Below are positions 2,396 to 28,462 of a stretch of 28,462 nt of DNA, one piece after another. A program made the position numbers and the translations under genes. Each line of letters opens with the position of its first letter. Position 1 is the stretch's first letter. Location: assembly GCF_000003605.2 (NCBI RefSeq), contig NW_003155737.1, positions 1,004,027 to 1,032,488 on the forward strand. Reading direction: 5' to 3'. A model generated the notes under the pieces. That model was not told the DNA's origin. It did not search any database and saw nothing but the letters and a program-made list of their open reading frames with translations. The stretch comes from Saccoglossus kowalevskii (lineage: Eukaryota; Hemichordata; Enteropneusta; Harrimaniidae).

Positions 2396-3100
2396 CAGAC
2401 ATTAAAAAATCCTTCCACATCACAATTTCAGTATTCTTTCATTCCATTAACTGCCACCCTCCCCTACCCACCATTTTTAGTATGCAAGTAAAAAAAACAT
2501 TACAGATAATGTTAATATTAGTATAGATTATTTGCATCCATTTTTCAAAAGTCCAAATTTAATGATTTACTAAGTATTCTGTATTATTAGATAGTGTTTA
2601 GTTGGAAACAAGTTTTGGTGATTTGAGTTCACTTGTGTACTAGTGTTTTTATTTAATGTAAATACAATTGTTTTATAGTATTAAGGAAAATACTTAAATA
2701 TCCAGCAAATATTCAACTACTATGATTTTATTTTTGACAAGGTGACGAGATTTATATAAATTCTTTCTACTCATTAAGTACTGGTTCTCAAGATTATAGC
2801 TTCAAATGGAATTTACTTTCAAATTATTATTTAAAGTGTATGTACTTTAACGCTGTTTTCTGGTGTGATCCATTTAATAGGGTGGTGACAAGGCCAGCTG
2901 AGAGGAGCAACATGGCTGACAATCTTTCAGTCAGTCTCCGTCAGAAAATGGTTTGACTCGATATTTGTAAAATGATAGCTGCTAACCACCTAGCTTATTG
3001 TTAATTTTTAAACAAGTCTTTGACACTAACATCAAATTTTGTCACATTAATCATATGTCCATATTTTTAGTCCGGGGGTCTGAAAATTGGATGAATTAGC
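2396..3100. other. AT-rich stretch, nothing supported
   Basis: A short ATG frame at 2911 with a good start context (AACATGGCT) ends after 14 codons. No splice donor of quality follows it, so I do not call a gene. Confidence 0.4.
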
Positions 3101-3620
3101 CTGTGTATTTGTCCATCCATTTCACTGACACATAACAGGCTATCTTTCTCACACTTCACACAAAAACATAATGCAAGCAATAACAGAAAGCCGGCAGCCA
3201 TTTTGAACTCCCAATTTTCTGTATCTGGATACTGAAATATGTTTGGAGCAGCTTCTCTGAAATGACTAGAATGATTTCAATCAAACTTACTTATTGGGTT
3301 ACAAAGGCATGTGATAGGTTATTTGGAATTGTGGCAAAAAAAATAGACAACTGGTGGCCAGTTTGTCGATGCCAATACTAGTACTTCACTAATACACTGC
3401 CTGATTCACAAGTTCCATACTTGTGGTACAATGTAACACTGTTTGGTAGTTTTGTGATTGTCAAATTGACAGCTGTTTCCCAGAGGTGGATAGTTGAATA
3501 ACTTTCTATTATGATCAATGCATACTGGGTTACAGATGTGCATTTGTTTTCAAGATTTGGATGAAAATATTGGTGGTCATTTGGATTTTGCTAGTTTTGT
3601 CTGAAATACAATTACTGTTT
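3100..3620. repeat. Degenerate tandem-like repeat of roughly 160-230 bp
   Basis: Related segments recur. TTGGGTTACAAAGGCATGTG near 3295 resembles CTGGGTTACAGATGTGCAT near 3526. GGCAGCCATTTTGAA near 3194, CTGGTGGCCAGTTTG near 3351 and TTGGTGGTCATTTGGA near 3570 share a core. Divergence is high. Confidence 0.5.
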
Positions 3621-8321: not shown

Positions 8322-8451
8322 TTAAAGCGGGAGGGTCGTCATCTGCGCACGCGCGGGAATTGAGTCCCAACACACGCTAAAAACGCAAAGGCTCGTGGGT
8401 AGACGCTTGTTTGTAAACAATGACACGCTATGGCCACTCTCTTGTATTTAA
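8322..8451. mobile_element. MITE family 1, copy 2 (inverted, internally shortened)
   Basis: The reverse complement matches 2234-2395: TTTGTAAACAATGACACGCTATGG, GCTAAAAACGCAAAGGCTC and the end TTAAAGCGGGAGGGTCGTC are all shared. TTAA bounds both ends. About 20 bases of the second terminal repeat are missing (GGCCACTCTCTTGTATTTAA replaces a longer end), so this copy is about 130 bp. Confidence 0.8.
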
Positions 8452-10396: not shown

Positions 10397-10692
10397 TTGT
10401 GACTCGAGAAGTTTCTGGCCTGTGACTCGAGACATGTTCGACTAGTTCATGCAAATAACTGCGTTACGTGACTACAACTTTTATACAATATTTTCCAACC
10501 ATACAGTTTCAAGTAAGATTTGTACTATCTTAGTGATTATTACACAGCAATGAATAAGACTGTCTATAAGATTATCTGTCATATACTCCCACCTACAAAA
10601 GTTGTTGTCACGAAGCTGTATTTTTGGCGGGCTTATGCAAAATAACCTTTTGATTCTAATTTTTAAAAATAAAACATTTCACCTATTAAGCA

Positions 10693-10730
<38 letters not shown>

Positions 10731-11183
10731 TTTATAGAATTTTTAGACTTGGACATTCTGAATCCATTTCTTTACTACTATCCATCTATACCGATGTAAT
10801 ATAATACACCATTTGCGAGTTTCTGGTGCACGTGATATCCTGTCCGATTATATAGGCTTGATCAAAGTCGATTCATGACACACACGATCGCAGTTTTGCG
10901 CATACAGACAATTAAGACAAATAAATGCAACTTTTCAGGATTTCAAGGTGTTTAGAATCAAACCTTGCCGTGATAGGGATATTTTTATGACAATTTTAAT
11001 AACAATTGTACGAATCAGCAGGTTGTATGACGTATTTTAACATAAATGTCAAGTGGTACTGAAACCCGCAAATAGTCTATTCAACTCGACGTATGTGATT
11101 CCAGACATAAAAGATTAATCTCCGAAAAACGTATAACATTTGCATATTTACAGAGATAATAAACATCAATTGCTAATTACATA
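10397..11183 (+). repeat. Direct duplication, copy A (about 0.79 kb)
   Basis: It runs from TTGTGACTCGAGAAG to TTGCTAATTACAT and is matched along its length by copy B at 11216-12113. Shared landmarks include TTGTACTATCTTAGTGATTA, GTTGTTGTCACGAAGC, TTGTACGAATCAGCAGGTT, and long near-identical blocks ending in CATCAATTGCTAATTACAT. A (TA)n tract sits where copy B has about 235 bp of other sequence. No coding frame is shared. Confidence 0.88.
10695..10725. repeat. (TA)n microsatellite
   Basis: About 15 uninterrupted AT dinucleotides lie inside copy A, at the point where copies A and B differ in length. Confidence 0.95.
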
Positions 11184-11215
11184 TGCTGTGAGTAGCAATG
11201 ACTCGAGATGTGTCC

Positions 11216-12113
11216 AGTTTGTGACTCGAGAAGTGTCTGGCTTGTGACTCGGGAAGTGTCCAATAACTGCGTCACGTGACTACAACTTGTTGGGATGTTG
11301 TTTCAAATTCAATATTTTGAATATGATTTGTACTATCTTAGTGATTATTATCCCGCCTACAACAGTTGTTGTCACGAAGCAGTATTATTTGGCGGACTTA
11401 GACAAAATCAACTTTTTGATTCTAGTTCTTTAAAATAAAACATTCTCACCTATTAAACATGATGGAAACGGTGGGAAAGGATACAGTATTTAAAAATAAA
11501 TATGTACATACGAAGGACAAGTATGTCATTGGAAATTATGTGACAATGACTTTCATGCCACGTTGTCATGTACCATGTCTTCAGCATTTTCGTATTTCAC
11601 AAACACTCTAAATGAATGGAATATTGTGAGGTTTATAATGGATATATACACTCATAATCGGATAAAAGGATGAGACAGAGTATTCAGTTATGACAATACA
11701 TATATATATACAAAATCTATAGAATTATTAGACTTCGACATTCTGAATCCATTTCGTTACTATTATCCATCAATAGACCGATGTAATACAATATACCATT
11801 TGTGAGTTTCTTGTGCACGTGATATCATGTCCGATTACGTAGGCTCGTTCAAGGTTTATTCATGACACACATGGTTCGCAGTTTGAACAATTAAGTCAAG
11901 TGAATCAAACTGCCTTACCGTGATAGGGATATTTTTATAACTATTTTATTAAGAATTGTACGAATCAGCAGGTTATATGTCACGTGGTTCTGAAACCCGC
12001 AAGTAGTCTATTCAACTCGACGTATGTGATTCCAGACATAAAACATTAATTTTTGAGAAACGTATTACATTTGCATATTTACAGAGATAATAAACATCAA
12101 TTGCTAATTACAT
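11216..12113 (+). repeat. Direct duplication, copy B (about 0.9 kb)
   Basis: It is homologous to copy A in the same orientation, beginning about 32 bp after copy A ends. The segment 11463-11697 has no counterpart in copy A. The last 40 or so bases, from TTTGCATATTTACAGAGATA to CTAATTACAT, are identical in both copies. Confidence 0.88.
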
Positions 12114-13208: not shown

Positions 13209-13214
13209 TTTATT
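13209..13214 (-). terminator. Possible polyadenylation signal of the receptor gene
   Basis: AATAAA on the minus strand lies about 115 bases past the receptor stop codon, with a GT-rich stretch further downstream. The position is right for a short 3' UTR, but the hexamer is common in AT-rich DNA. Confidence 0.4.
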
Positions 13215-13328: not shown

Positions 13329-13403
13329 CTACACAGCAGTGACGTCAGAATCACTATTCCGATTCACTCCAAATTGATTGTTGCAAACCGAGTTCATTCT
13401 AAT
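13329..13403 (-). CDS. Receptor exon K: last coding exon and stop
   Basis: The acceptor ATATTTGATTTTTCAG has a good pyrimidine tract. Twenty-four codons and a TAG stop follow in the phase required by exon J. The tail is polar and ends SDSDVTAV, a possible class I PDZ-binding end (T-x-V). The intron before it is 1821 bp, so an alternative terminal exon cannot be excluded. Confidence 0.72.
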   Translation of the reverse strand: MRMNSVCNNQFGVNRNSDSDVTAV

Positions 13404-16400
13404 CTGAAAAATCAAATATACAATAATTAACCAATGTGAAACCAATGCCTGTAAGATGACAGAAACATGTGAACGTCATGTGTATTACCGGTTGATACGG
13501 GCTTGGTACATGGCTCTCTTATATCCGTGTTGTTTTACACCTCATATACTACAACTATGGCAATGTATGAATGTGTGAAGCTGTATCATACATTCATTCC
13601 AATATGATTGATTGAAATAGAAAACACAAAGTTGTGTATAATGTGATATGAAATGTGTACAGCGGTGTAGCCATTATGCATGGAATATTTAAGCGAGAAA
13701 ATAGATTAGAAAGAACTGCCATGGTAACAGCACCAGAGTCGTCAAGTACCTTGTGACACAGAAAGGTAAAATTCAAGCTTATGCTGATTTATATTTTTAA
13801 CGAGTTTGTAAGCACAAATGATCGACAGTCATTCATTTGGTTGTTTTAAAGCACGTAGGTTGCGAGAAAATGTCGAGTGCTCGACTGGAACAGCCAAATC
13901 CAGAATGCGTCGAAGTACTGCGAAACTGTGCACTCGACTCAGTGTCAGCTACGTATAGGAGGGGACATGGCAGAACTAGAGACAGTGATTGACAGCGAGA
14001 GACGAGGTGATATACAAGAAGAAATGAATTAAATCGCCACAGTCGTCGCGACGCATCATGTTCGATGTGGGACCCATGCGTCGTATACAACACAGGTACA
14101 ACATTATTTGTTCACACGAAATTCGAACACGAGCTACACGGCAACTGTAGCGCTTTATACGTGAAATGAATGTGTTAGTTTCAGACTGTGCAGTACACCC
14201 TGTAAAACAGTCTGAGAGTAAAAAGCGAAGCTCTAAGGACGTTGCTAATGCAATATTAACATGCGTTCTGTGTACTTTAAGCGAAGCAAGCAACATTTGC
14301 CCTCTAGCAATGCGTGATGCGTACTATCGTGTGCTTTTCCGTGGTTGTTAAGACTTACGTATTGAAGTTTGTCTTTCCACGAGGGGGAGCGGGTCACTTT
14401 CCGACTCGCCATCCGCTACAAAAAGACAGAAACGCAAGCAATCTAAGAATATAGACAGATGAAGCTGGTCTTCCTAAGTAAATCTATAAAGGCAAACAGC
14501 GATGAGCGGGAAAATATCTAGGAATTACTGAACTGAATGACGCAATGCTGACATGCTCAATGCATTGGAAGAATATAGCCCTTGAATCGAGGTACAAATT
14601 AAAAACGATTCTTTGTTAAAACATTATATGCAGTAAACAACTCCCTAAAAGCTTGCTATTTCAACATGCTGGGTGCGAAGTAGTGATTTGTGTGCAAGTC
14701 ATTCCAGTCTGTATAAAATTGGGTTGTAGCAGTGCTCAGGAAATTTGCAATTTACTATGTGCATATACGACACATGCACTCATACACACCTATTCTGGGA
14801 TATAGACCATTATAAACTGTAGCAACGGCAATTGCATGTGCATATGCAGATATTATTAAAATAAATGGGATGCGTTCATGCGACTTCAGTGTTCTTTACT
14901 GCCATACGCATTTAATTTGTATTTACTATGGGTAATGAATCTAGTGATTAGGATATGTATTGATATGGCTGCTAAATATCAGCCAATATATTCGAGAGAG
15001 AGAGATGATTTGCCATGTGTACGAAGAAGTTTAAAAAACACATTACCCCAAAGATGCTTAATGAGATCCAATCAATTAACATATTCACAAATAGGTGTGA
15101 AGATGATAATTACCAATCCAAATGCTATTCATGCAACGGGATTGGTATAACATGGGGAAATGTACATGGTTTAACATATTGTAAGAATTGACACATCTTT
15201 CGACTAACTGGCGATAATTCTTACCTCTGTCGTGCACGTGTTGTTGGTGGTTCCTCTCCTGCCACTACTCATTGGGTTCCGTGCATCTTGCCACCTCGTC
15301 CATCTTCGTTTAATGGCTTGTTGCACCTATATTGTCAAAAAAATATAAATAATTGTCGTGTGTAACGACAAACACAAAACTTTTCATTTATATCCGGGTA
15401 TGGTGCTCACGAAAAGCTTTTCGTTATTTTGTAGAAAAGTTGCATTATTATTTCAACATCACCCAATTTCAATGTGACACTCACCTCGCCATTACAGAAA
15501 CAGAAAATCATCGCACATACAAATCCTTGAAATGTAACTAATATACTTGTGGCGTAGAAATATAAATATACCACCCAAGCTTCTGCCGTGGCTTTTGGTC
15601 TGTCTGGCAGAAACAATAGGTTGGTAACTCCCAGTAGAGGTACCAGAACCAATGCTGCTTTAACGGCTTTTCTGAAACGATAAACGGATTATTTTCTTAT
15701 ATTCAATTGAACACATACACTACACTGAACCTAATTTAACAAACACACTTCTGTTTAAGCGTACCCTAAGACAAATGTGGAATAACACGTTTATCAGACA
15801 ACTTTGGTCCGTCCCTATTTTCCCGCACATGACCTTGTATAGAAAAATATTTACAAGTATCAGCAACTTTTTTTAAAACTTATTTATTCACTGATCAAAA
15901 CTAAGGGATAATTTGTCAACCCCAAATGTATATTTAACACATTTGTGATGTTTGAATTTGTCTAGAGAATACTTTTACTAAATTGAACGCCTCAATAGTA
16001 TATCTTAATATTGTATACTTATTCTGTACACAAAGTATACTTTTTGAAATTCATACATGCAAGAAAACACCAGCACGTTATTTGTATACATATTTTATAC
16101 ACATTCATTCATGTATATTTGTTGTATACGGGAAATGTGCAGAATGTTTTCAAAGAATTAAAATAATTTATATGTAAATTAGATGTACGAAATCGTGACT
16201 AAGAATCGGAAAGAAACATAAAACATATGTTAAATTTATGTATGATAAATAATTATAAATGATTTGGCAAACAATAGTACTATTTGTATATACCACCTAG
16301 AATGTACAAACAAAATAATTTAGAATCTACGTGAAACAAAATAAACTTAACCACGCACACTAGTAAAATTGATGTATACGTATTTATGTGTACAATATAT

Positions 16401-19368
16401 GGACTGTTTTAAATAATGTTTACTGAATTATTTTAGTCATTATAAAAATAGTATACAAAAGTTGAATATATTAGAAACTTGAACTCCTGACATGAATTAT
16501 TGTCATTTTTTGATCAATGTAAGAAATTAAACTTTCCATTACATATCTAGTGTTGTCATTTTTCAGTTTTATCAAAATACAATGAAAAAATCATTATTCT
16601 GACTACAACCAGTTTGCTGTACAAATCCGAACGACATATAAGCCAAACAAATAAAACAGCGAATATAGATTTATGTAGTCAGTCATATAACCAATTAATG
16701 TATCAAATTACTAAATGTAAGTATAAATAGATGCAATTACAAGTAGTTGGGTAATACGACTATACACTGAGGAAAATGAAACCTACTCGTTAAATTCATG
16801 TTTTTTTTAAATATATGCTATTTATGAAATGCTCTTTGTAAGATTGTTATATACAAATTTGTTCCAAATATAGGTTCCTTCTTGTATACAACAATTTATA
16901 CATAAAATGTTCAGAAGAAAAATCGAAACTCATTAATGAATTCTGGTAATTAAAATATGGCATAACACACAGGCATCGTTCACCGTTGGTAATTACATGA
17001 TATAAAAAATACATTTGACGAAAACTTGTAGCACCAGGCCCGGCACTAAATGAATTATATAAAGGCCTATTGACTTTACATGTGAATTATATAGGGACTA
17101 TTCAAAGGAAGTCTTTATATAATGATGGTCACAAACACGTGTTTAACTACATGTGCTATCGAGTATACGCTAATGTGACTAAAAGGCGATTTATTATAAT
17201 TCAAATATACCAAAATGCCGTAACATGGGACCCATTCAAGGGTACATTCATAACAATTTTCTCTATAGATGATACGCGGTTCAATATACTATTATGAGGT
17301 TATTACGATAATACTGCAAAGTATACATGATGCAGTATATGACCGTGGTATAGACCAAGGCATAGCGGAAGCCAATGCGTCACCGTATTGCCTGAGTGCA
17401 TACTTTGCTGTATTCTCGTGACAACCGTATTATTATCTATCTTTTTCCTGTTTGTAGTAATAATTTCATGAGGGCTAACACTCCGAAATGGCGTTTCTGT
17501 GCCTGGAAAGAAAGGAAAGTGCACAAAAGTGACGTAAAATTGGCGCATTCGAACGTAACACTTTCGAACACGTCCGTACGGCGAATTCTATTGTTTTCGG
17601 TGTCATATATATATAATAATATGTCACACTGTACTCACTTCACTTGCATGGTATCTGTCGTATGACTTTCTCTCATCTTCGTGATAAGAACCCGTACAAT
17701 GTTGATCAGAAAAATCAAATTGATCTGCAAAAAAGACAGATAGAAAAAAACAAATATCATAATATCAATTTGGAAAACAAGATCTGCACCTTGCTCTGAA
17801 ATATTCACGACGAAAACGTAGTTATAAACTACACAGGTGGGGCAGGTTGCAGTAAATTGCCCCGAGTTAATTCCCACATTTCCCGTGTGCCATTTTATTC
17901 GGGAAAACAAAATGCAATATTATCAACTCTCGTTATTGTTATTACTGAAGGGAATCTTCAGGGAATGTGCACTTCCCGATGTAATTGCTTCGAGACTTGA
18001 CAGCGTACTTACAAATAAGATGGCGTTACGTGGTCCTTCGATCAACCAGTAGTAAGGGGAATAATAATAGCCAAACCAACAGCTAAAAGATAAGTAATGA
18101 TCTAAATAAGAACGTGATAGGAAATGAAATGTCTGATGTGAATAGCAGATTATGAGTTCTGAGGTTTAGGATTATATCTTTTAATGAAACTGTCTTGTCA
18201 TTCTCTAGTGATTACATATACGTCTTGTACGATGTAACTCACATATTAGAGAATAATCAAGATCTATTGCAAGTGCCAAGACATTACCAAGATGTGATGT
18301 AAGATTACTTACTTTTGGTTATTGGTATACGACATGGCCACAGCCCATCCTATGACGGGTAGTAGAGGTGCAACTAGAAAAAAAAACACGCCAAGCGTAT
18401 GTTACAATACATCACTTCCATGAACACATTGAATCTACACAGTATGAAAAAGAGACATACTGAGGATCGATTGGGATCACACTTGAGCATTCAAGTCTGA
18501 AAATGCATTTCTAATCAAATAGAAAGTTTTTATAACGCCTTTTAAAAAATATAAACATATAAGGCGTACTGTGAATAAGAGGGAGGTGATGCCCAGTGTG
18601 TCGGCCTAAATTCATCTCAGGTTGCGTATTCATGATGTACCTGAGCATAAATGTAATGTACTATTGTAACTTTATTTAACACATAGATCACTTTCAAGCA
18701 CAGCAGTATATCAATTGTCTCTGACTGTTTAGGACTCCAGGTTTCAATATCTACTTTTCTTCACTTAAAGTGTTGATTACACCCATGTGAAATCAGCTTG
18801 ATTCAACTGACTATTTAAGACAGCACAAACGACGCAGCACAAAATCTTAAAGGGTGGAGGTCGTTACGCCACGTACGGCGACTTTGACTAACGAGTACAA
18901 ACTGAAAACTTTCTAAGCTTTAACTATGTAATTTCTTTGGTGGTGGGAGATATCGAAGGAGTCACCGGTGGTAATTAGTGCACGTCGCGCCCAGATCAAC
19001 ACTCGTAATGGTAATTTCTATTAGGAGAGTGCATGGATTTGTGGGAAATGAATGTTTATTAACACAAATGTCGAACATGCGGGACGCGACGACCATCGCC
19101 CTGGAGTTTTGTGAGTGCTTAACATCTAGACTAATCATACCCATGTAAGAGAAACCCGCTTTGCTGGTTTCTTATTTGGGTTCCATACGTTAACCCACGA
19201 GACCCATAATCAATATAGACTAAACTCAACTGAATATGTCTGTTTTCAGACACTTAAAAATATACCATTGACAAGCTTGGCAGGTTTGTAGGATTTTATA
19301 ACTCGCTTTGATTAGGGTATAATAGTTCAATTACACTCAGATTAACAAGTGACGGTTGAAAGCTTAAT

Positions 19369-19400
<32 letters not shown>

Positions 19401-19402
19401 TG

Positions 19403-19461
<59 letters not shown>

Positions 19462-22400
19462 GGGGGTTCTCCCCGATTCTTAGTCACGATATCCTATGTA
19501 CATGTAAATTATACAATATTTAGGATTTTAATCCTTTGAAAACATTTCCAGTATACGACAAATATACATAATGGATTTGTGTAAAGTATGTATACAAATA
19601 ACGTGCTGTTTCCACATCACGTGACATCAATTGATAGCAATTAATTATTCAAACTCGGAATTGTGTCTCAAATCGTCGTGGAGTTCTTCCAACTAATTTG
19701 AGTCGTGGATGGCGGGGAGAGAGGCACACACGAACTATCCGATTTGATTTGGGATATAGTTTGTTATATGAATATGGAAAGTAATGAAACTTGTCAATAG
19801 AACGATACAATAATTAATTGGTAGACACAAATAGTTTGGAGGACATTGGACAAAATCGCAAAACTTTGTCTTTTGACCACCACGATTGTTGTCGCTTTAG
19901 AATCCGACCGCAAGAATACTTTCTTTTCACTGCCGTTCTATTTCAGTTTATCCTAACCGGACTGCGATTTTTTCACGTCTTTCGTCTTCCATCTATATAA
20001 CAATCAATGATTTTATTTCTTTTTGCATATTTGGTCAACGATAGTGCGATTACGTAATCTGGCGCTTGTTCACATTGTAGTTATTATTCAGTGGCGTTTA
20101 TGTTAGAGATCTCGGTAAGTGCCGAGACTCGGGACCGAGTCGGCGCGTGCCGCAAAAAACTCGATCTCGGTTCCGATAGATGCTCGGGACCGAAAGTCGG
20201 CACGTGCCGAGATTTGCTGCCTAAACGCTGGATACGAAATCACGCCCTCGGTGGTGAATGGAAGAGAATATACTAGTATGCTGATTCATACAAGTATGAC
20301 ATGACAACGGAGAACAGAGCAGCTATATATGATCGGATGCTGTAGTAATGAAATGAATGCAAACCGTCGTTAGCGACGCATATTTATGTGCTGCTGCAAC
20401 CGTTTTTTTTTCTTGCAATGCTACATATAATTGTTTTTCGAATCTTCTCGGCAGTTCATGTGCACAATGACTCGTAATAAATACCATAATAGCAAATTGA
20501 TATAATTTCAATTTAGCAATTATTATTATCATCATATATATATGAATTAATTATATGAATTTCGACACGTACTGTAATCACATAATGTGAACGTAGCAAT
20601 TAGTGTCTGACTTTGCACCCCTTCCCAGGCGTAACTAATTTATTAGGCAGGCCTAAATATTTATGTTCGTGTTCACACAAGAAATGTTGCAACCCTAAAA
20701 TTTGGGTAAGCCTAATGATGCCTTATTTTTTATGCGAATCCACCTACTACCCCCACCACAAGACATTAGTGAACGCCATCCGACCTATCAGGTTCGCCGC
20801 TTTCTCATTAATTTGGAAAATGTAGCTTAATCCGAATTTTTTTTTGAAAAATATAAACGGATGAATATCCGTCATTGTCAGCGAAGAAACTAACATGAAT
20901 AGGAAGATTTCCGGAGGGAGACAAATTGCAGGATAAATGATTTATTTTGGTAAACCGGGAGAGATCGAGGAATAAGTGGAATATATAGAATTGAAACATA
21001 TATGTTCAACTGTTCACAAGGTAGCTGCAGCTTTTCTGATTTTTCAATATATACTGAAATGTTCCGAACTAACAAATCAATATATAAAGTTATTGTCAAT
21101 TAGGTAAAAAAAATGTATATACGAGTTTATTTAATAATAATTATTCCAAAATTTTAAGTTTCGTTTATTATATTTATGCCCACAAATATTATTTCCATTT
21201 CTATGGCTGGCATCATAATGACCACGTACTTCCAACTAGAATCACTTAAACGCCACAGTACATAATGTGATGTCTTTGATTGCTGAGAAGTCAATAAGCA
21301 AATATATCGACCGCCAAATGTGCAAATCTCAATGATGGGGCTACATAGTATAATCGTATTTTGTATTACTTACCCCAGCCTACAAAGTAATACACTTTAA
21401 AATTCGGTTTGTGAAACACCGCTGCCGTTAACAGTCTGTGGAGGTATATACCTTCCACGAAGTTCCACGTAAACACACATACACGGGTATACTCCCTGAC
21501 GAACTCGAATGTCTCACATAGAATTGGCTGTTAACATATAAAACAAACAAATTCCATCAGAAATGTGATGTTATACTGTGGGTACCAAAGCGAGTCGAAA
21601 TTTATAATATATAATACATGTCGTCACAATAATTAGAACATGGTACAACTCATCCACAGTCAGCTAGTGATTAATTTATCAATATTTACTATATTGGGGC
21701 CGCCATCTTGAATACGGAATGAAACTAAATAAAGAAGCAAGTTGACAAACGCGTTTTTCACTTTCCTACAAATCAATAGGAAAATACCAAACTTTCACAG
21801 CCAAACGATTCGTTGGGATAACATGAAACCAACAGCTTACACAATTCAGCCGAATTCGTAATTTTGCGTGGAAAATCCCATGCACACGAATACCTAATTA
21901 CACAAAGAATGTAGAACACTTTCCCGCAGGGATATTGAAACCGTCATCTAACTTTGAGGCCGTCGCTGATTGGATCCTAAGTAGGATGACGATTTCGGTT
22001 TCAAAGAAAACTGGAAGATGTTTGTGTAATTAAGTGTTCGTATGCAAGGGTTTTTCTAGATAAAATCGACGAATTCAGTCGAATTTTGTTAGCGGTTGGC
22101 TTTATTATCCCCAACGGATCATTTGACTGTGAAAGTGTGGTATTTCTTCCCGATTTGCAGGAATCTGACGAACGCGTTTCCCAACTTCTTTCTTATTTAG
22201 TTCTTATGACGTATTCAAGATGGCGGCCCCCTATATAGTAAACATTGGTAAATTCATCGCATTTATTTTATTATCACATGTACGCCAGCTGACTGTGAAC
22301 TCATCGGTAATATTTACGATCAAATTCAACTTAAAAACCAGACACATGCCGTATATACTTGTTATTCTTATTGAGTCACTGCTAGCATTGGATTTTCGAA

Positions 22401-25166
22401 AGAAATATACTCTCACCGTATTTCGTATGGTATTGTGGTGCTGCTCCACGGCCTCACTGCTGTTACAGCCTAGTGTTAACTCCTTTTGCTTCTCTTCCTG
22501 CTGGAAAGCATAGTCGAAGGACAATATGAATTCAATACCAATCCACACAATGTAAGATATAAATAGTTGTTTATGGATCTGAGTCCGAGGACATAGTAGG
22601 CTCCTGTGAAATAAATGAGTGAATCACCTTAATCATATTCTAGTGATGTTAAATAACACATTGCACACAAACCGAGCAATAATTAAAGCACTAATATTAT
22701 CCCTGAGTTGTCCTAAAAACGGAGATAATATTATCTCTGAGTGGTTTCAAGAAAAGAAAAGACAATATTATCCTCAAGGGGTTCCATGAAAAGAAGAGAC
22801 AGTGGTCAAAAAGACAATAGTACCCTTGTGCGACCCAAGATTGACGGGGATATTAATTCTCCTTAGTGAGTGGCCCGATAACAGCGAAAATAATACGTAA
22901 TTATGTAGTAAATTTTTATCAAATTGAGCAGTTTTGATTATTTTTGCATTTTCTGCTGGTAAAATGAATTAGTCATGGGGCATCATAATTCCGTGTTTCT
23001 TGAAAGTATGTACAATGGTTATATAATCGACTTTAGAATACTGAAACAAGAAGTGATACAATGTAATAAATGACGGAAAAAAGTCTCACATACTGTCAGA
23101 GATCACAATTTCACGTGGTGCTTGATTACATCCCCGGATGCTACTGGGCTATATTGATGCACATATATGCATAGAAATCACCCTTACCTGAAGGAATAGA
23201 ATATAAATAAGGCCGCTACTAAACTAGTCAATGATATGGAATACCCAACAGCCTGTAGAATTCTCGAGCCCGACATCGCATTTCCATAAAGCTGTAATAA
23301 TGTAAAACAAGTACAATAAATGTTAAAATAATACTTAGGAGTTCTGTATTCGGTATGTTGGCAGAATAGAGAAAATGTGGTCGAATTAAAAATCATAACA
23401 GGTGAGTTTTTGGTAACTTATTAAAATAAATGTAAAAACGCTTGTTTTCATCAAAACTACCTGTTATAAGTTTTTGTATGTTGTCATGTGTTCATTTGCA
23501 TCAGCTGTTAACCCTTGATATATTCTAAATCCCTGAACCACTCGAATACTATAAGGGCATCGCAGATATTACAGATTGTGGTTCGATTTAATGCAGTGCT
23601 GTCCAGAGACCCGACGTGGTTAATAACTCGAGTGTGTTTGCGGTTCTCTTCAGTCTTGTGGGGATACGTAGATAAAGTGATTTGTTGAAACCGGAAATGT
23701 CCCTGTGTTCGCGATGCATCGTGGATAATGCACAAACTAAAACCAAAATGGCGATATTAGGATATATAAATGCAACTTAATTGAAGTCGTGAAGTCGGTC
23801 ATTTACCTCTATTTGGTCGAATGTAGCTGTATGGTCGTACACTACACCGAGTAACCGTCTGGTCACATCGTCCATGCACAGGGAGAATACATTTCCAGTG
23901 CTTAACGAGGCATTGTCCCATACTCCACCTGCTTGGCAAAATAGTGGAATCTTCCCTAAAAAAGACAATAGCATGCAAGTAACGTTTTATTATTATTGTG
24001 AAACGTTGACATCAATGTTGTTAACGCTTCGCGTATATCTTTCCATTGGATTGGGTCATATGATACACCCGCCAAGACACCGAGTTATGCCGGTACTTCG
24101 ATAGGAGCATACAGTGCAGGAACTCTGACTCGCTTGGCAGATAACTCTTATGTGGACACTAGTACCAGACTCGACCCAAAGGAATAAACATTTGAAGTAA
24201 TCATAGATAGAACACATTATTACTAGTCAACCGAGGTGCCCAAATTACAGCTTCAACTCCCTAACTCCAATTACACTTGCACAATTTCTTACACCTGTAA
24301 CTGCTCTGTTAAATATCTAGGCGTATATGTTATCCATCAATATCTGCAAGACAATGGCGTATGACGTAAGGGTAACTAACCTTGCAAATGTTTACTACAG
24401 TATATCTATGAACTTAATATGTGTTTTTCATTCGGTAGTATATTCATTCATTCGACCAATGAAAATCGATGTACTTTGTTTTGCTGGTAGTTTAGATAAT
24501 CTGTTTACAAACGAACAGCCGAAAAATTGCTTAAAAATGAAATGCTGCTCAAAAGTTAAAAAAACAATAATGCGATTTTGTTATACTGTTATATGTGCTC
24601 TTTAAAATATGTGCACATACACATGGTAATTTCTATAAAAACTGCCAAAACTTGGCGATTTTAACAATGCAATTGTACTGCATCGGCATCTTTGTTTTAT
24701 ATGAGAAGAGTATGCAATGTGCAAATTAGCTAGATATATTATTATCCATATATTATTAAATATTTTGAATAATCCGGATTTGACGCATGTTTGTTATTTT
24801 TTAAATACTCATCCTCTTGAGGTTTTTGAACAGTAACTAGGTATAATACAGCACTGAGACACCATGTAACTGAATTGCACACTTGAGTTTGAACGCCGTT
24901 TACACATTCTGACAGCATGGATCTAATCAATAACAACAGGATGACGATTACTATCTTCCATATGTTGATTATAGCTCTAGGTTAAATATAGTCACATCAT
25001 ATCATCTGCGTAAGAATCTAAATCTGAAAATCAGATGTACCTGTATTTCCCCAGAATGCCGATGGAGGGCAATCGATCACTGCGGTTGTGTTTTCTAGTG
25101 TTGTTGGCCAGCATAAACTGAGACACATATCGTCCAGGGGTTGACAGTATCCCAAACAGTATTGAT
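13329..25166 (-). CDS. Secretin-family (class B1) G-protein-coupled receptor, 11 exons, 5' end missing
   Basis: This gene encodes a seven-transmembrane plasma-membrane receptor for a peptide hormone. Members of the family usually couple to Gs and raise cAMP. The exons on the minus strand, in transcript order, are 25166-25041, 23955-23807, 23291-23188, 22603-22417, 21527-21374, 18373-18313, 18082-18013, 17724-17639, 15671-15485, 15326-15225 and 13403-13329. All ten introns are GT..AG and the reading phase is continuous across every junction, giving 432 residues and a TAG stop. Diagnostic pieces are the CWP motif of the hormone-receptor domain, IHKQLF in TM2, FVEGIYLH in TM3, a TM3 Cys paired with the ECL2 CW, FLINIVRVL in TM5, PLLG in TM6, and FQGF..FCFCNGEV in TM7. 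The signal peptide and first ectodomain residues are not seen, so the model is partial. EGPR in ECL2/TM5 and KAALVLVPLLG recall protostome PDF, calcitonin or CRF-like receptors; the subgroup is an inference only. Confidence 0.93.
13860..14470 (+). other. Less AT-rich block inside receptor intron 10, possible decayed coding fragment
   Basis: One plus frame reads from ATG 14166 through a single TAA at 14349 to TGA near 14463. After the TAA it gives a Ser-rich then basic stretch (SDSPSATKRQKRKQSK). No domain is recognised. It could be a relic of an inserted gene, or chance. Confidence 0.25.
15225..15326 (-). CDS. Receptor exon J: helix 8 and cytoplasmic tail
   Basis: The acceptor is TTGACAATATAG and the donor is ACAGAG|GTAAGA. 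It has exactly 34 codons in phase 0. VQQAIKRRWTRW is the amphipathic, basic helix-8 segment expected right after the TM7 NGEV of class B receptors. The rest is a polar tail. Confidence 0.88.
15485..15671 (-). CDS. Receptor exon I: TM6, ECL3 and TM7
   Basis: The acceptor is TTATCGTTTCAG and the donor is GGCGAG|GTGAGT. One base plus 62 codons gives KAVKAALVLVPLLG (TM6), a short ECL3 around LPDRPKATAEAW, and TM7 with TFQGFVCAMIFCFCNGE. The QG pair of TM7 is conserved. Family-typical Thr in TM6 and Tyr in TM7 are replaced by Ala and Phe. Confidence 0.95.
15672..17638. other. Receptor intron 8, AT-rich
   Basis: This 1967-bp intron is strongly AT-rich from about 15980 to 17000 and holds no exon-like sequence. 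A short inverted repeat lies at 17310-17414. Confidence 0.6.
17310..17414. repeat. Short inverted repeat in intron 8
   Basis: AATACTGCAAAGTATAC at 17310-17326 pairs with GCATACTTTGCTGTATT at 17398-17414, with two mismatches in 17 bases. Confidence 0.65.
17639..17724 (-). CDS. Receptor exon H: rest of TM5 and ICL3
   Basis: The acceptor is TCTTTTTTGCAG and the donor is GTGAA|GTGAGT. It encodes INLIFLINIVRVLITKMRE and then HTTDTMQV, a typical class B TM5 end and ICL3. It ends with two bases completed to Lys in exon I. Confidence 0.93.
18013..18082 (-). CDS. Receptor exon G: ECL2 and start of TM5
   Basis: This is a 70-base exon, too short to show as a long open frame. The acceptor is ACTTATCTTTTAG and the donor is TTATTT|GTAAGT. 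It encodes CWFGYYYSPYYW followed by LIEGPRNAILF. The Cys-Trp is the conserved ECL2 pair, with Cys expected to bond to the TM3 cysteine. Confidence 0.92.
18313..18373 (-). CDS. Receptor exon F: TM4
   Basis: This is a 61-base exon with acceptor TTTTTTTCTAG and donor CAAAA|GTAAGT. Joined to exon E it reads GWVAPLLPVIGWAVAM. The usual class B GWGxP motif therefore appears as GWVAP, with the Val codon split by the intron. The exon ends with AA, completed to Asn by exon G. Confidence 0.9.
18850..19103. mobile_element. MITE family 2, copy 2 (in receptor intron 5)
   Basis: It is related to 9514-9804 in the same orientation. The left end AGGGTGGAGGTCGTTACGCC and the reverse complement of the right end AGGGCGATGGTCGTCGCG form terminal inverted repeats. 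Shared interior landmarks are AACGAGTACA, GATATCGAAG, TTAGTGCA and AACACAAATGTCGAACATGCG. It is shorter than copy 1 and has no coding capacity. Confidence 0.78.
19371..19461. repeat. (AAT)10-TGTC-(ATT)19 microsatellite
   Basis: Two complementary trinucleotide tracts are separated by four bases, so 30 bp of AAT can fold onto ATT as a perfect hairpin. It lies in receptor intron 5. Confidence 0.97.
20089..20230. mobile_element. GC-rich palindromic MITE with hAT-like ends (about 142 bp)
   Basis: The left end CAGTGGCGTTTATG..ATCTCGGTAAGTGCCGA and the reverse complement of the right end CAGCGTTTAGG..ATCTCGGCACGTGCCGA match as terminal inverted repeats of about 45 bp. CTCGGGACCGA also occurs twice as a direct repeat inside. 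The CAGTGGCG start resembles hAT-type ends, but no 8-bp target duplication is visible. It lies in receptor intron 5. Confidence 0.75.
21374..21527 (-). CDS. Receptor exon E: TM3, ICL2 and start of TM4
   Basis: The acceptor is TATGTTAACAG and the donor is TGGG|GTAAGT. The exon starts in phase 0, has 51 codons and ends with one base. PILCETFEF holds the conserved TM3 cysteine. WNFVEGIYLHRLL holds the invariant E3.50 of the class B core. KVYYFVGW is the entrance to TM4. This exon alone identifies the family. Confidence 0.95.
21667..22260. mobile_element. Foldback element with arms of about 280 bp (in receptor intron 4)
   Basis: Almost the whole element is an inverted repeat. The left arm (GGGGCCGCCATCTTGAATACG, ACTTTCACAGCCAAACGAT, CCTAATTACACAAA, GAAACC..GTCATC) is matched by the reverse complement of the right arm (GGGGCCGCCATCTTGAATACG, ACTTTCACAGTCAAATGAT, CTTAATTACACAAA, GAAACCGAAATCGTCATC). 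The arms meet near 21960-21990. The flanking TTTACTATATxGGG is also part of the arms, so exact ends are uncertain. The open frames on both strands at 22220-22550 overlap its right end by chance. Confidence 0.9.
22417..22603 (-). CDS. Receptor exon D: ICL1, TM2 and a long ECL1
   Basis: The acceptor is TTATTTCACAG and the donor is AATACG|GTGAGA. One base completes Arg, then 62 codons follow. PRTQIHKQLFIS carries the conserved R2.46 and H2.50 of class B receptors. TM2 runs to about ILSFD. A hydrophilic ECL1 of roughly 30 residues follows, with GCNSSE as a possible N-glycosylation site. A different frame also stays open here on both strands, but the splice sites and motifs fix this one. Confidence 0.92.
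22692..22880. repeat. Degenerate tandem repeat of about 35 bp in intron 3
   Basis: AATATTATCCCTGAGT, AATATTATCTCTGAGT, AATATTATCCTCAAGG and AATAGTACCCTTGTG recur at about 34-51 bp spacing, often preceded by AAAAGAC. Confidence 0.75.
23188..23291 (-). CDS. Receptor exon C: TM1
   Basis: The acceptor is ACATTATTACAG and the donor is TTCAG|GTAAGG. The exon starts in phase 0 and ends with two bases (AG) of an Arg codon. It encodes a short linker and TM1, with core AVGYSISLTSLVAALFIF. This matches the class B pattern of a small residue-rich TM1 followed by FYSFR at the start of ICL1. Confidence 0.93.
23807..23955 (-). CDS. Receptor exon B: end of the ectodomain
   Basis: The acceptor is TCTTTTTTAG and the donor is ATAGAG|GTAAAT. 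The exon completes a Gly codon, adds 49 codons and ends in phase 0. It contains LFCQAGGVWDNAS, which matches the family pattern C-x(3)-G-x-W, and a last ectodomain cysteine in FSLCM. DNAS is a possible N-glycosylation site. Confidence 0.92.
25041..25166 (-). CDS. Receptor exon A: hormone-receptor domain, first visible part
   Basis: The acceptor TTTTTCAG precedes the exon and the donor ACAG|GTACAT follows. The exon begins with two bases of a split codon and ends with one. It encodes 41 complete codons including DDMCLSLCWP and IDCPP, the conserved CWP and C-P pieces of the ligand-binding ectodomain. ENTT is a possible N-glycosylation site. Five cysteines fall in this short exon. Confidence 0.9.
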
Positions 25167-28100
25167 CTGAAAAATAAACAAAATGAACATAAACGTCTTC
25201 AATTGGAATACTCTACATAAGGCGTAATGGCAAACACTCCTCGTATGGATGATATGTTTGCAGCCACACGTCACGGTCGATTTAGACATCAAACAACGAC
25301 AATATAATCGAAATAATTAGACTTTATAGTACATTGAATTGTGGGTATTTACAGTATAAACACATTGTTGATCGATTGAAATTATGATTTGTTAGACATG
25401 ACGTAACTACACACAAGGAATGACAATTATGTTAATCTTACGATCAATGAAATAATAACCAGAGAAATATTGGAAGCTGTATCTGAATAACTGGGACATA
25501 AACTCATAACTCTAGTCTGACAATGTGTAGGTTTAATAAATTACTCAATCATTATCCCGGATTTCTTTTATTTGATTTGTTGTGACTAGTATAGTTTATA
25601 TTAATAATATAAACCAATATAATTTAAGCCGTGCAGTAGCATTAATATGTCGACGTTAATGGCGATATAAACATTTCAATACAGATGCATACTATATTGG
25701 ATTCATGATCTATTTGACCCATATCACATTTGTATGCAGCTTGTGTGCGTACCAACAACTGAGAACTCACGACTCAATCCAACCCAATGAACGATATCGG
25801 TCGTTTCCACTCAATAAAATAGTTCTATTTCTTGCATACATAATGCAATATTCGTATTATAGGTCAATGTCAGCTAACTCGTGGGAATAGAGATGTCAAG
25901 TAATTGGCCATGCACTGTAACACAATGGCACTCATTTTAAGTAGATTTGTGTGTCGTCACGGAGGCCTTTGTTCTATGTATAAGATATAGATAAGCTGCC
26001 ATATGTTTTCTACATAGCTCTGTGTAGAAAAATTGCGAATGGAACAATTGTGAATTACATTTTAAAATGTCTCTAAGACTATCACACACACCTGACCTTT
26101 TTCACAGTATCACGTTTATTGAACTGAATTATAATATTCATAATATAAATAGTGTAGACTTTGGCGACGAACAGTTGAAAATTGCTACTTTTGATAAATA
26201 TCTGAAACGATGGGTATATTCGAATTTACCGTATTTCTGACAAGGTACGTGATATTGGAACGTGGTGTTATAAAAAATATCACATCGCTTTATCACAAGG
26301 ACTTATATAGAGGAGACAATATTGTAATAGATCGTAAAACAACTTTAGGGATTGAACAATTCTGATGATGATTTTGGGAATTGAATAAGACCATCTCCAA
26401 CATCTTACAAAAGAAATGTGTAGACAGTGTTCGTGTAGTTCTTCGCGTAATCCAGAAAAGTACAAGTCGTACAAAGAAGCCAAACGGGCACATATGAGCA
26501 TATTTGTATACAAGAATCACTATTAAAACACGATATGCGCACACTCGTAATATAATCTACAGGGAAGAGACATTCACGATTTTAAAATAATATACTAACT
26601 AGGACACGTTGTTGACATATTTTCTAACACATATTTTAAAGTAGGGAAACGGTCTTAACATAACTTTGTTTTAATATTGTTGGGTTATACAGCCAATCAA
26701 AAACTGTTATTTCAATCGCATTTTCCAGCGCAGATTTCCATCACCGAATATCGCTATCTACATGTATCAGTAGGTGGCAATTGCACTATAGCTATCCGCT
26801 TATCATACGTGATTATGATTTAAATACACGCAAACAGGTCCCAGTGTCAGTAATGATTGGAAATCGTAAACCTTCTAAAAGGGATATTAGGTCAAGTGGA
26901 AAACAACCCGGCTTTCGTCTTAATTTCAATGCATATTAATTGAGTTTGAATATTTCAAAATCGGATATAATGACGCCGAGTTCTACAGGGAGAAAGATGA
27001 ACCACAAAAAAACCATCAAAGGAATTTTATAATGTGAAGAAGAGCTCCTTGTCGTAATTGAAATTGAAATCGGGCATGGTTAACTTTAATTTATAGTCAT
27101 TGGACTGGTGATTAGACGCCTAAGGGTTTCTATGATCAACGGGCAACGAGTGTCGCGACTTTATGCTTAAAGCACAATACTTAAGTCGTTGACATTTGCA
27201 ACTGATTACTGAACTTTAAAATCACAAATCGAATCTCTTTCAGAAGGGCATGGAATACAGTATCATGGGTTTTCCTGAGCTTGGTTAGTTTGGCATATTA
27301 TGTACAACTACTTTGCAGGTTGAGAGTTTCGGGTCTTCTGATAATGAAATCGGTCGTCAATATTTGAAATGTGCTATGACGTTTTTCATTTACATTGGTC
27401 ATGGAAAAGAACTACCTACTTTTAATTTGTAACTTTGCGTCAGAGTGGCTAGTTAGATGGACATACTAAGTTTACAGAGGAACCAACATAAATTTCACAC
27501 ATTTTTCAACCAATGGAAAATAAAATTATGAAATATTCCATATTGTACATCAGTAAAGGTATATATTTCATATATTTATTTTAAGGACTAGGTGAATGAT
27601 GATGAAATATATTCTACATAATTATATGCATGTTCACGGTTGTGTGTTTTGATTCTGGTTCGAGTGTAGAATATCCAATCAACGCTCGCCAAACTGCCGA
27701 GGCATAGATACCAAAGCAAATATAACAAATTGTGAATTTGTTGCACGTGTTAATCAAATAGGTTTGCATCCGGGCTATTTTGTAACATGAGACAATAAAC
27801 ATATAAAATAATGATTAAATGAACAAGAAATAGGTTATTCTGTCGGTTTGATTCGTAGTTAACAACAAATAACATATTTGACTGAGGTGCCTATTTATCA
27901 GCTTATAAGCAACTGCATTCCTTGTCGTTTCATTTCATATGTTGAAACAACAATATCGAGTGTATACAAATGTGAGATAATCCAAGGTCACAAAAAACAG
28001 AGAGATTCTCACATTTACTGTGATACTGATTGTAATAGCGGCCAGCCCGAAGCAAAAAAAACCATATACAATTTCTAAATGAAAGCATCGCAAATAGGTA

Positions 28101-28462
28101 AGCGTGAGTTAATGAATTACTCGATATAAAAAAAAGAGTGAATGCTCCCACTTTCGAAGCATACAATAAAATGTTCGATTAATGGTGCATGGCAGTGATA
28201 TATCACACAGTTTGGCAGGCAACTAAAATGAGAATGTCATGTCCTTGTCATATTTGAAAACGTTTCATTATAATTCAAGGTATGCTTTTCTTCATAATTC
28301 TAAACGAGCATAATATATATACCGGTATATATACATATGAATATAAGAGTTGACATTTAATTGACTTGACATTTATTTGGGTGATGAAAAACACATTTAT
28401 AATGCTTTTTAGTGCTTTTCCCGTAAATTAGAATGGTGAAGACCGACGATGTGTTGGAAATT
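25167..28462. other. Upstream region of the receptor gene, no exon identified
   Basis: This should be the intron before exon A and possibly the first exon or promoter. I searched the minus strand for a donor leaving one base of a codon and a preceding signal peptide with a cysteine-bearing helix, and found none I could defend. Many short chance frames are present. Confidence 0.5.
28314..28333. repeat. Perfect 20-bp palindrome
   Basis: TATATATACCGGTATATATA is self-complementary over its whole length. It may be only a by-product of TA-rich sequence. Confidence 0.9.

Follow-up and report, generated by a model that had tools for sequence, protein, structure and literature searches.

The eleven exons described here, on the minus strand of the window (the whole stretch of 28,462 nucleotides that was analysed), form a class B1 GPCR gene which is incomplete at its 5' end. 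We consider it probable that most of a functional peptide-hormone GPCR gene of class B1 (the secretin family) is present at this locus, and that it is of the PDF-receptor type, a term which takes in both the PDF receptor (PDFR) and a PDFR-related or PDF-like sister group. Judging from the receptor type, the gene is probably that of an invertebrate.

Joining of the eleven exons via ten introns, from position 25166 down to 13329 on the minus strand, gives a single open frame which encodes a product of 432 residues followed by a stop codon. Splice phases are consistent at all ten junctions, every intron is bounded by GT..AG (lengths ranging from 158 to 3000 bases), and neither a stop nor a frameshift is present across the exons. 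Exon boundaries were first set by visual inspection, at in-phase GT/AG sites. Seven transmembrane segments, helix 8, the ectodomain motifs, the splice sites and the open frame are all present. The features of the locus, in the order of transcription, are as follows.

25167..28462, minus strand: expected place of the missing first exon or exons (signal peptide and first ectodomain cysteine), if within the window; none recognised by a simple filter
25041..25166, minus strand: exon A, ectodomain with the CW and CP motifs and four cysteines ahead of the CP cysteine; HRM match
23807..23955, minus strand: exon B, end of the ectodomain (GxW motif and last two ectodomain cysteines) and stalk; HRM match when joined to exon A
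23188..23291, minus strand: exon C, TM1; 7tm_2 positions 5-29, donor recovered by the splice search
22417..22603, minus strand: exon D, TM2 and a long first extracellular loop; 7tm_2 positions 32-83, both ends recovered
21374..21527, minus strand: exon E, TM3 (EGIYLH) to the start of TM4; 7tm_2 positions 75-125, E = 3.3e-9 alone, also in the splice search
18313..18373, minus strand: exon F, TM4; both ends recovered by the splice search, no 7tm_2 match alone
18013..18082, minus strand: exon G, cysteine of the second extracellular loop (CW), PYYWLIEGPR and start of TM5; both ends recovered, no 7tm_2 match alone
17639..17724, minus strand: exon H, TM5 and third intracellular loop; 7tm_2 positions 171-195, splice search
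15485..15671, minus strand: exon I, TM6 and TM7; 7tm_2 positions 202-249, splice search
15225..15326, minus strand: exon J, helix 8 and start of the cytoplasmic tail; acceptor from the splice search, donor by GT and phase only
13329..13403, minus strand: exon K (probable), encoding the final 24 residues and the stop, with a T-A-V end; GT/AG and phase, without homology support
13209..13214, minus strand: AATAAA poly(A)-type hexamer, about 115 nt past the stop of exon K; seen in the sequence

An earlier note on this DNA had proposed an eleven-exon class B1 GPCR of 432 residues, in which GT/AG exons join in phase into a coherent receptor. Splicing reproduces this product, and both the domain search and the splice search described below agree with it. 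The note was also right to let the receptor run from a CWP ectodomain to a C-terminal stop; the model nevertheless lacks its 5' end, and its last exon is insecure. Exons F, G and K had been described as unseen in views of open reading frames; F and K indeed lie in no listed ORF of at least 80 aa, whereas exon G is contained in an 80-aa stop-to-stop ORF (17923-18165, minus strand).

A Pfam search of the whole product identified the 7tm_2 domain with E = 3.1e-54 and 184.3 bits, covering profile positions 5-249 of 250 (residues 101-363) and therefore all seven helices. For an exon-wise scan, eight pieces were used (A and B joined, C to I singly), in which split junction codons were trimmed except for one valine at exon F. 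Taken singly, five of these eight pieces (C, D, E, H and I) gave 7tm_2 matches, with E ranging from 3.3e-9 to 0.015 and in colinear order, while the tail made of J and K gave no Pfam match. A construct of only C, D, E, H and I scored 127.7 bits in two stretches, as compared to 184.3 for the whole product. Exons A, B, J and K fall beyond the match at residues 101-363 or only just touch it, so this gap in score is mainly due to exons F and G, the two that account for profile positions 126-170.

The support for the HRM domain of the ectodomain is partial. The whole product scored 24.2 bits, which is under the cut-off of 26.2, whereas exons A and B alone reached 27.1 bits. The match starts at profile position 10-11, leaving the first 9-10 positions unmatched. 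The C-W, C-P and G-x-W motifs of the ectodomain are present at product positions 18, 32 and 52, and seven ectodomain cysteines were counted, a count which leaves out the missing upstream exon, as compared to the class B1 norm of six. In the excerpted text of PMC12638048, only the 7TM domain is predicted for the PDFRs of sea cucumber, and a weak HRM is therefore no oddity here.

The exon structure was also recovered by a search that was blind to it. A receptor profile, from which the product of the window had been excluded, was aligned to the DNA in a splice-aware manner and without supplying the exon list, using five other receptors for the profile in the first run and four, taken from PDB letters only, in the second. 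With both profiles, all seven junctions within reach (TM1 to helix 8) were placed at identical bases. The five-reference run scored 347.8, as compared to 32.0 for the plus strand, 28.0-33.8 for four triplet shuffles and 36.2 for the reversed sequence, and the four-reference run scored 334.1, as compared to 38.0 for the plus strand and 36.25 for the reversed sequence. Junctions A-B, B-C and J-K lie beyond the reach of this search and are based on GT/AG and phase, and for A-B also on the HRM match. Both runs added a 63-nt in-frame GT..AG intron within exon D (22460-22522), which would leave out a portion of the first extracellular loop. We judged it to be an artefact of the shorter loop in the profile, since its donor reads GTCCTT and since the first extracellular loop is also long in a provisional version of the Drosophila PDFR sequence.

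The entry of exon A in phase 1 implies one or more missing upstream exons, and the eleven-exon product contains neither a start codon nor a signal peptide. In the 3.3 kb upstream, a simple filter found four hydrophobic ORFs starting with ATG, and none of them is followed by a phase 1 donor. Only these 3.3 kb of upstream DNA belong to the window, and the missing exon may be located further out. At the other end, exon K is the weakest exon of the model. If the in-frame acceptor at 13448 were used instead, the exon would gain 15 residues. Eight further acceptors satisfy a simple pyrimidine filter, which the acceptor of exon K itself fails, and the frames that they open are 6-56 residues long. An ATTAAA is present at 14916, inside the J-K intron. 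The T-A-V terminus which exon K provides is presumably a PDZ-binding type of ending.

The missing 5' end, together with an HRM score below the cut-off in the whole product, might be taken as signs of a decayed copy (pseudogene) of a class B1 receptor. We regard decay as very improbable, given eleven exons free of stops and frameshifts with all introns GT/AG, and given a window border close enough that the absent exon may simply fall beyond it.

The earlier note had called the receptor the main gene of the window, and this is fair as far as we have looked: ten other ORFs, out of 210 stop-to-stop ORFs of at least 45 aa, were scanned with Pfam and gave no match at the curated cut-off, one of them showing a sub-threshold match to potato_inhibit (E = 0.02). 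Rfam at the gathering threshold and ARAGORN returned nothing in the window. Pattern searches for relatives of the receptor protein gave 38 matches in genome contigs and five in viral contigs, none of which was confirmed, as is expected for an animal gene. Several other features of the window were observed. Positions 1-289 hold about five copies of a 51-nt unit (tandem array 1-272), which a minus-strand ORF at 26-424 reads as a 17-residue repeat. A 44-residue ORF from ATG with a signal-peptide-like start (3070-3201, minus strand), perhaps the first exon of another gene, matched nothing in PDB with E up to 1. Two side-by-side inverted-repeat pairs at 2271-2395 and 8322-8433 (84% and 92% complementary) probably represent a single dispersed repeat that is present twice, in opposite orientations. 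A degenerate direct duplication occupies 10582-12113, with copies spaced 764-985 bases from one another (families D2, D3, D5 and D6). Within the introns of the receptor gene, the D-E intron carries an 88-nt inverted repeat (21696-21783 and 22143-22230, 75% complementary), and another pair, 73% complementary, is formed by 16161-16215 in the H-I intron and 19467-19521 in the E-F intron, the latter arm adjoining a (TAA)n/(ATT)n palindrome at 19370-19461.

As far as sequence comparison can tell, the subfamily appears best placed with the PDF receptors. The sole PDFR reference was a provisional version of the Drosophila sequence (CG13758) and not a deposited record. When it was compared with the excerpted text of PMC9166358, V505, S512 (in SLATQLS) and the number of S/T/Y residues in the tail (28) agreed, whereas SRTRGS falls at 630 and not 629, and the tail of this version is of 165 residues as compared to the 189-215 stated there for 17 species. 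A search of a set of papers for one PDFR peptide gave no match. In blastp, the product aligned to this provisional PDFR with 222 bits and 146 identities in 409 alignment columns, over a region that takes in the ectodomain, and to the human calcitonin receptor (CTR), supplied as the TM region only, with 190 bits. Stretches in common with the provisional PDFR are NTPxLCE before TM3, PYYWxxEGPR before TM5 and LLG[IV]TNLL in TM6.

Identities over 248 gap-free columns number 109 for PDFR, 107 for CTR, 105 for CLR, 93 for CRFR1 and 91 for PTH1R, so raw identity hardly separates PDFR from the calcitonin receptors. Columns which the window shares exclusively with one reference, out of the same 248, number 23 for PDFR, 11 for CRFR1 and 6 for PTH1R, while 15 are shared exclusively with both CTR and CLR and 27 with either. 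A tree of six sequences grouped the window and the provisional PDFR at 99/98; the branch of CRFR1 was flagged as long. In AU tests, the p values of which are weakened because the groups were named after the tree had been seen, placing the window with CTR/CLR (p 0.009) or with PTH1R (p 0.001) was rejected, whereas placing the window with CRFR1 (p 0.052) or PDFR with CRFR1 (p 0.056) was not rejected at 5%.

Among the best 60 of 89 matches to solved structures, the calcitonin receptor leads with 175.5 bits, followed by CLR (169.9), the CRF receptors (up to 167.9) and PTH1R (139.5 at best), and no PDF receptor is present among these 60. This ranking, in which the human calcitonin and CGRP receptors are the best matches, together with an identity nearly equal to that of PDFR and with the columns shared exclusively with CTR and CLR, speaks for a receptor of the calcitonin type (CALCR/DH31R or the protostome Cluster A group). 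According to the excerpted text of PMC3961327, however, most CALCR/DH31R carry W-S/T-N-Y-T and H-P between C5 and C6, and both motifs as described there are absent from the window. In view of this and of the rejected grouping with CTR/CLR (from the tree of six sequences, with CTR and CLR as its calcitonin-type members), a calcitonin-type receptor appears unlikely.

A CRF/DH44-type receptor, which we regard as quite improbable, has the next rank among these solved structures and the placement with CRFR1 that the AU test leaves standing on its side. The window also has CWFG before TM5 and RWxRWQD in helix 8 in common with human CRFR1, and both proteins end in T-A-V. The two differ in TM2 and from the first extracellular loop to TM3, and the exclusive columns as well as the identities are fewer than those for PDFR. 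Moreover, the excerpted text of PMC3961327 places the CRHR/DH44R motifs G-I/V-x-Y-D/N and N-A-T-R between C4 and C5, where the window has neither as so described; a single GVVYD occurs after the last cysteine.

Protostome PDF receptors are described in the excerpted text of PMC3961327 as having a G-W-T motif near the last ectodomain cysteine, and this motif, as it is given there, is absent from the ectodomain of the window; the gene was therefore filed as a PDFR or PDFR-related type and not as PDFR proper. The likeness to the Drosophila PDFR lies in the tree and in the stretches from the first extracellular loop to TM3, from the second extracellular loop to TM5 and in TM6, whereas the window lacks G-W-T, has a shorter cytoplasmic tail as modelled and would carry two cysteines above the expected number in its ectodomain.

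The gene may belong to the poorly known PDFR-related group. SEB-3 of C. elegans is also without G-W-T in the excerpted text of PMC3961327, the results and discussion of which place SEB-3 in the PDFR-related group, while one sentence of its introduction names SEB-2 instead. According to the excerpted text of PMC7200681, octopus, brachiopod and annelid have members of the PDFR-related group, whereas none is reported for bivalves, and a 'PDF-like (unc4)' group is described in lophotrochozoans (excerpted text of PMC8557429); we infer that these are one group under two names. The likeness of the window to receptors such as SEB-3, compared by description, is the missing G-W-T. A fuller version of this reading, in which the gene is a PDFR-related member, an extra disulphide from two additional cysteines of exon A stabilises the ectodomain and the ligand is not PDF, is put forward tentatively, as a possibility that we would not favour.

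PDF is a neuropeptide that tunes daily rhythms in insects. Judging from the family, a receptor of the PDF type would bind an amidated neuropeptide, either PDF/cerebrin or a related ligand. Its ectodomain would capture the C-terminal part of this peptide, while the N-terminal part would enter the transmembrane bundle. TM6 would then open and Gs would be engaged, with a rise in cAMP. PDFRs are described as raising cAMP in cell assays in the excerpted text of PMC7235175.

The analysis has provided a spliced and mostly complete model of a class B1 receptor where views of the longest ORFs give fragments. Peptides named NLP-49 are reportedly linked to nematode SEB-3 in the titles of papers. If the gene is PDFR-related, it would be a candidate for finding the ligand of this group outside nematodes; otherwise it would be an ordinary neuropeptide receptor.
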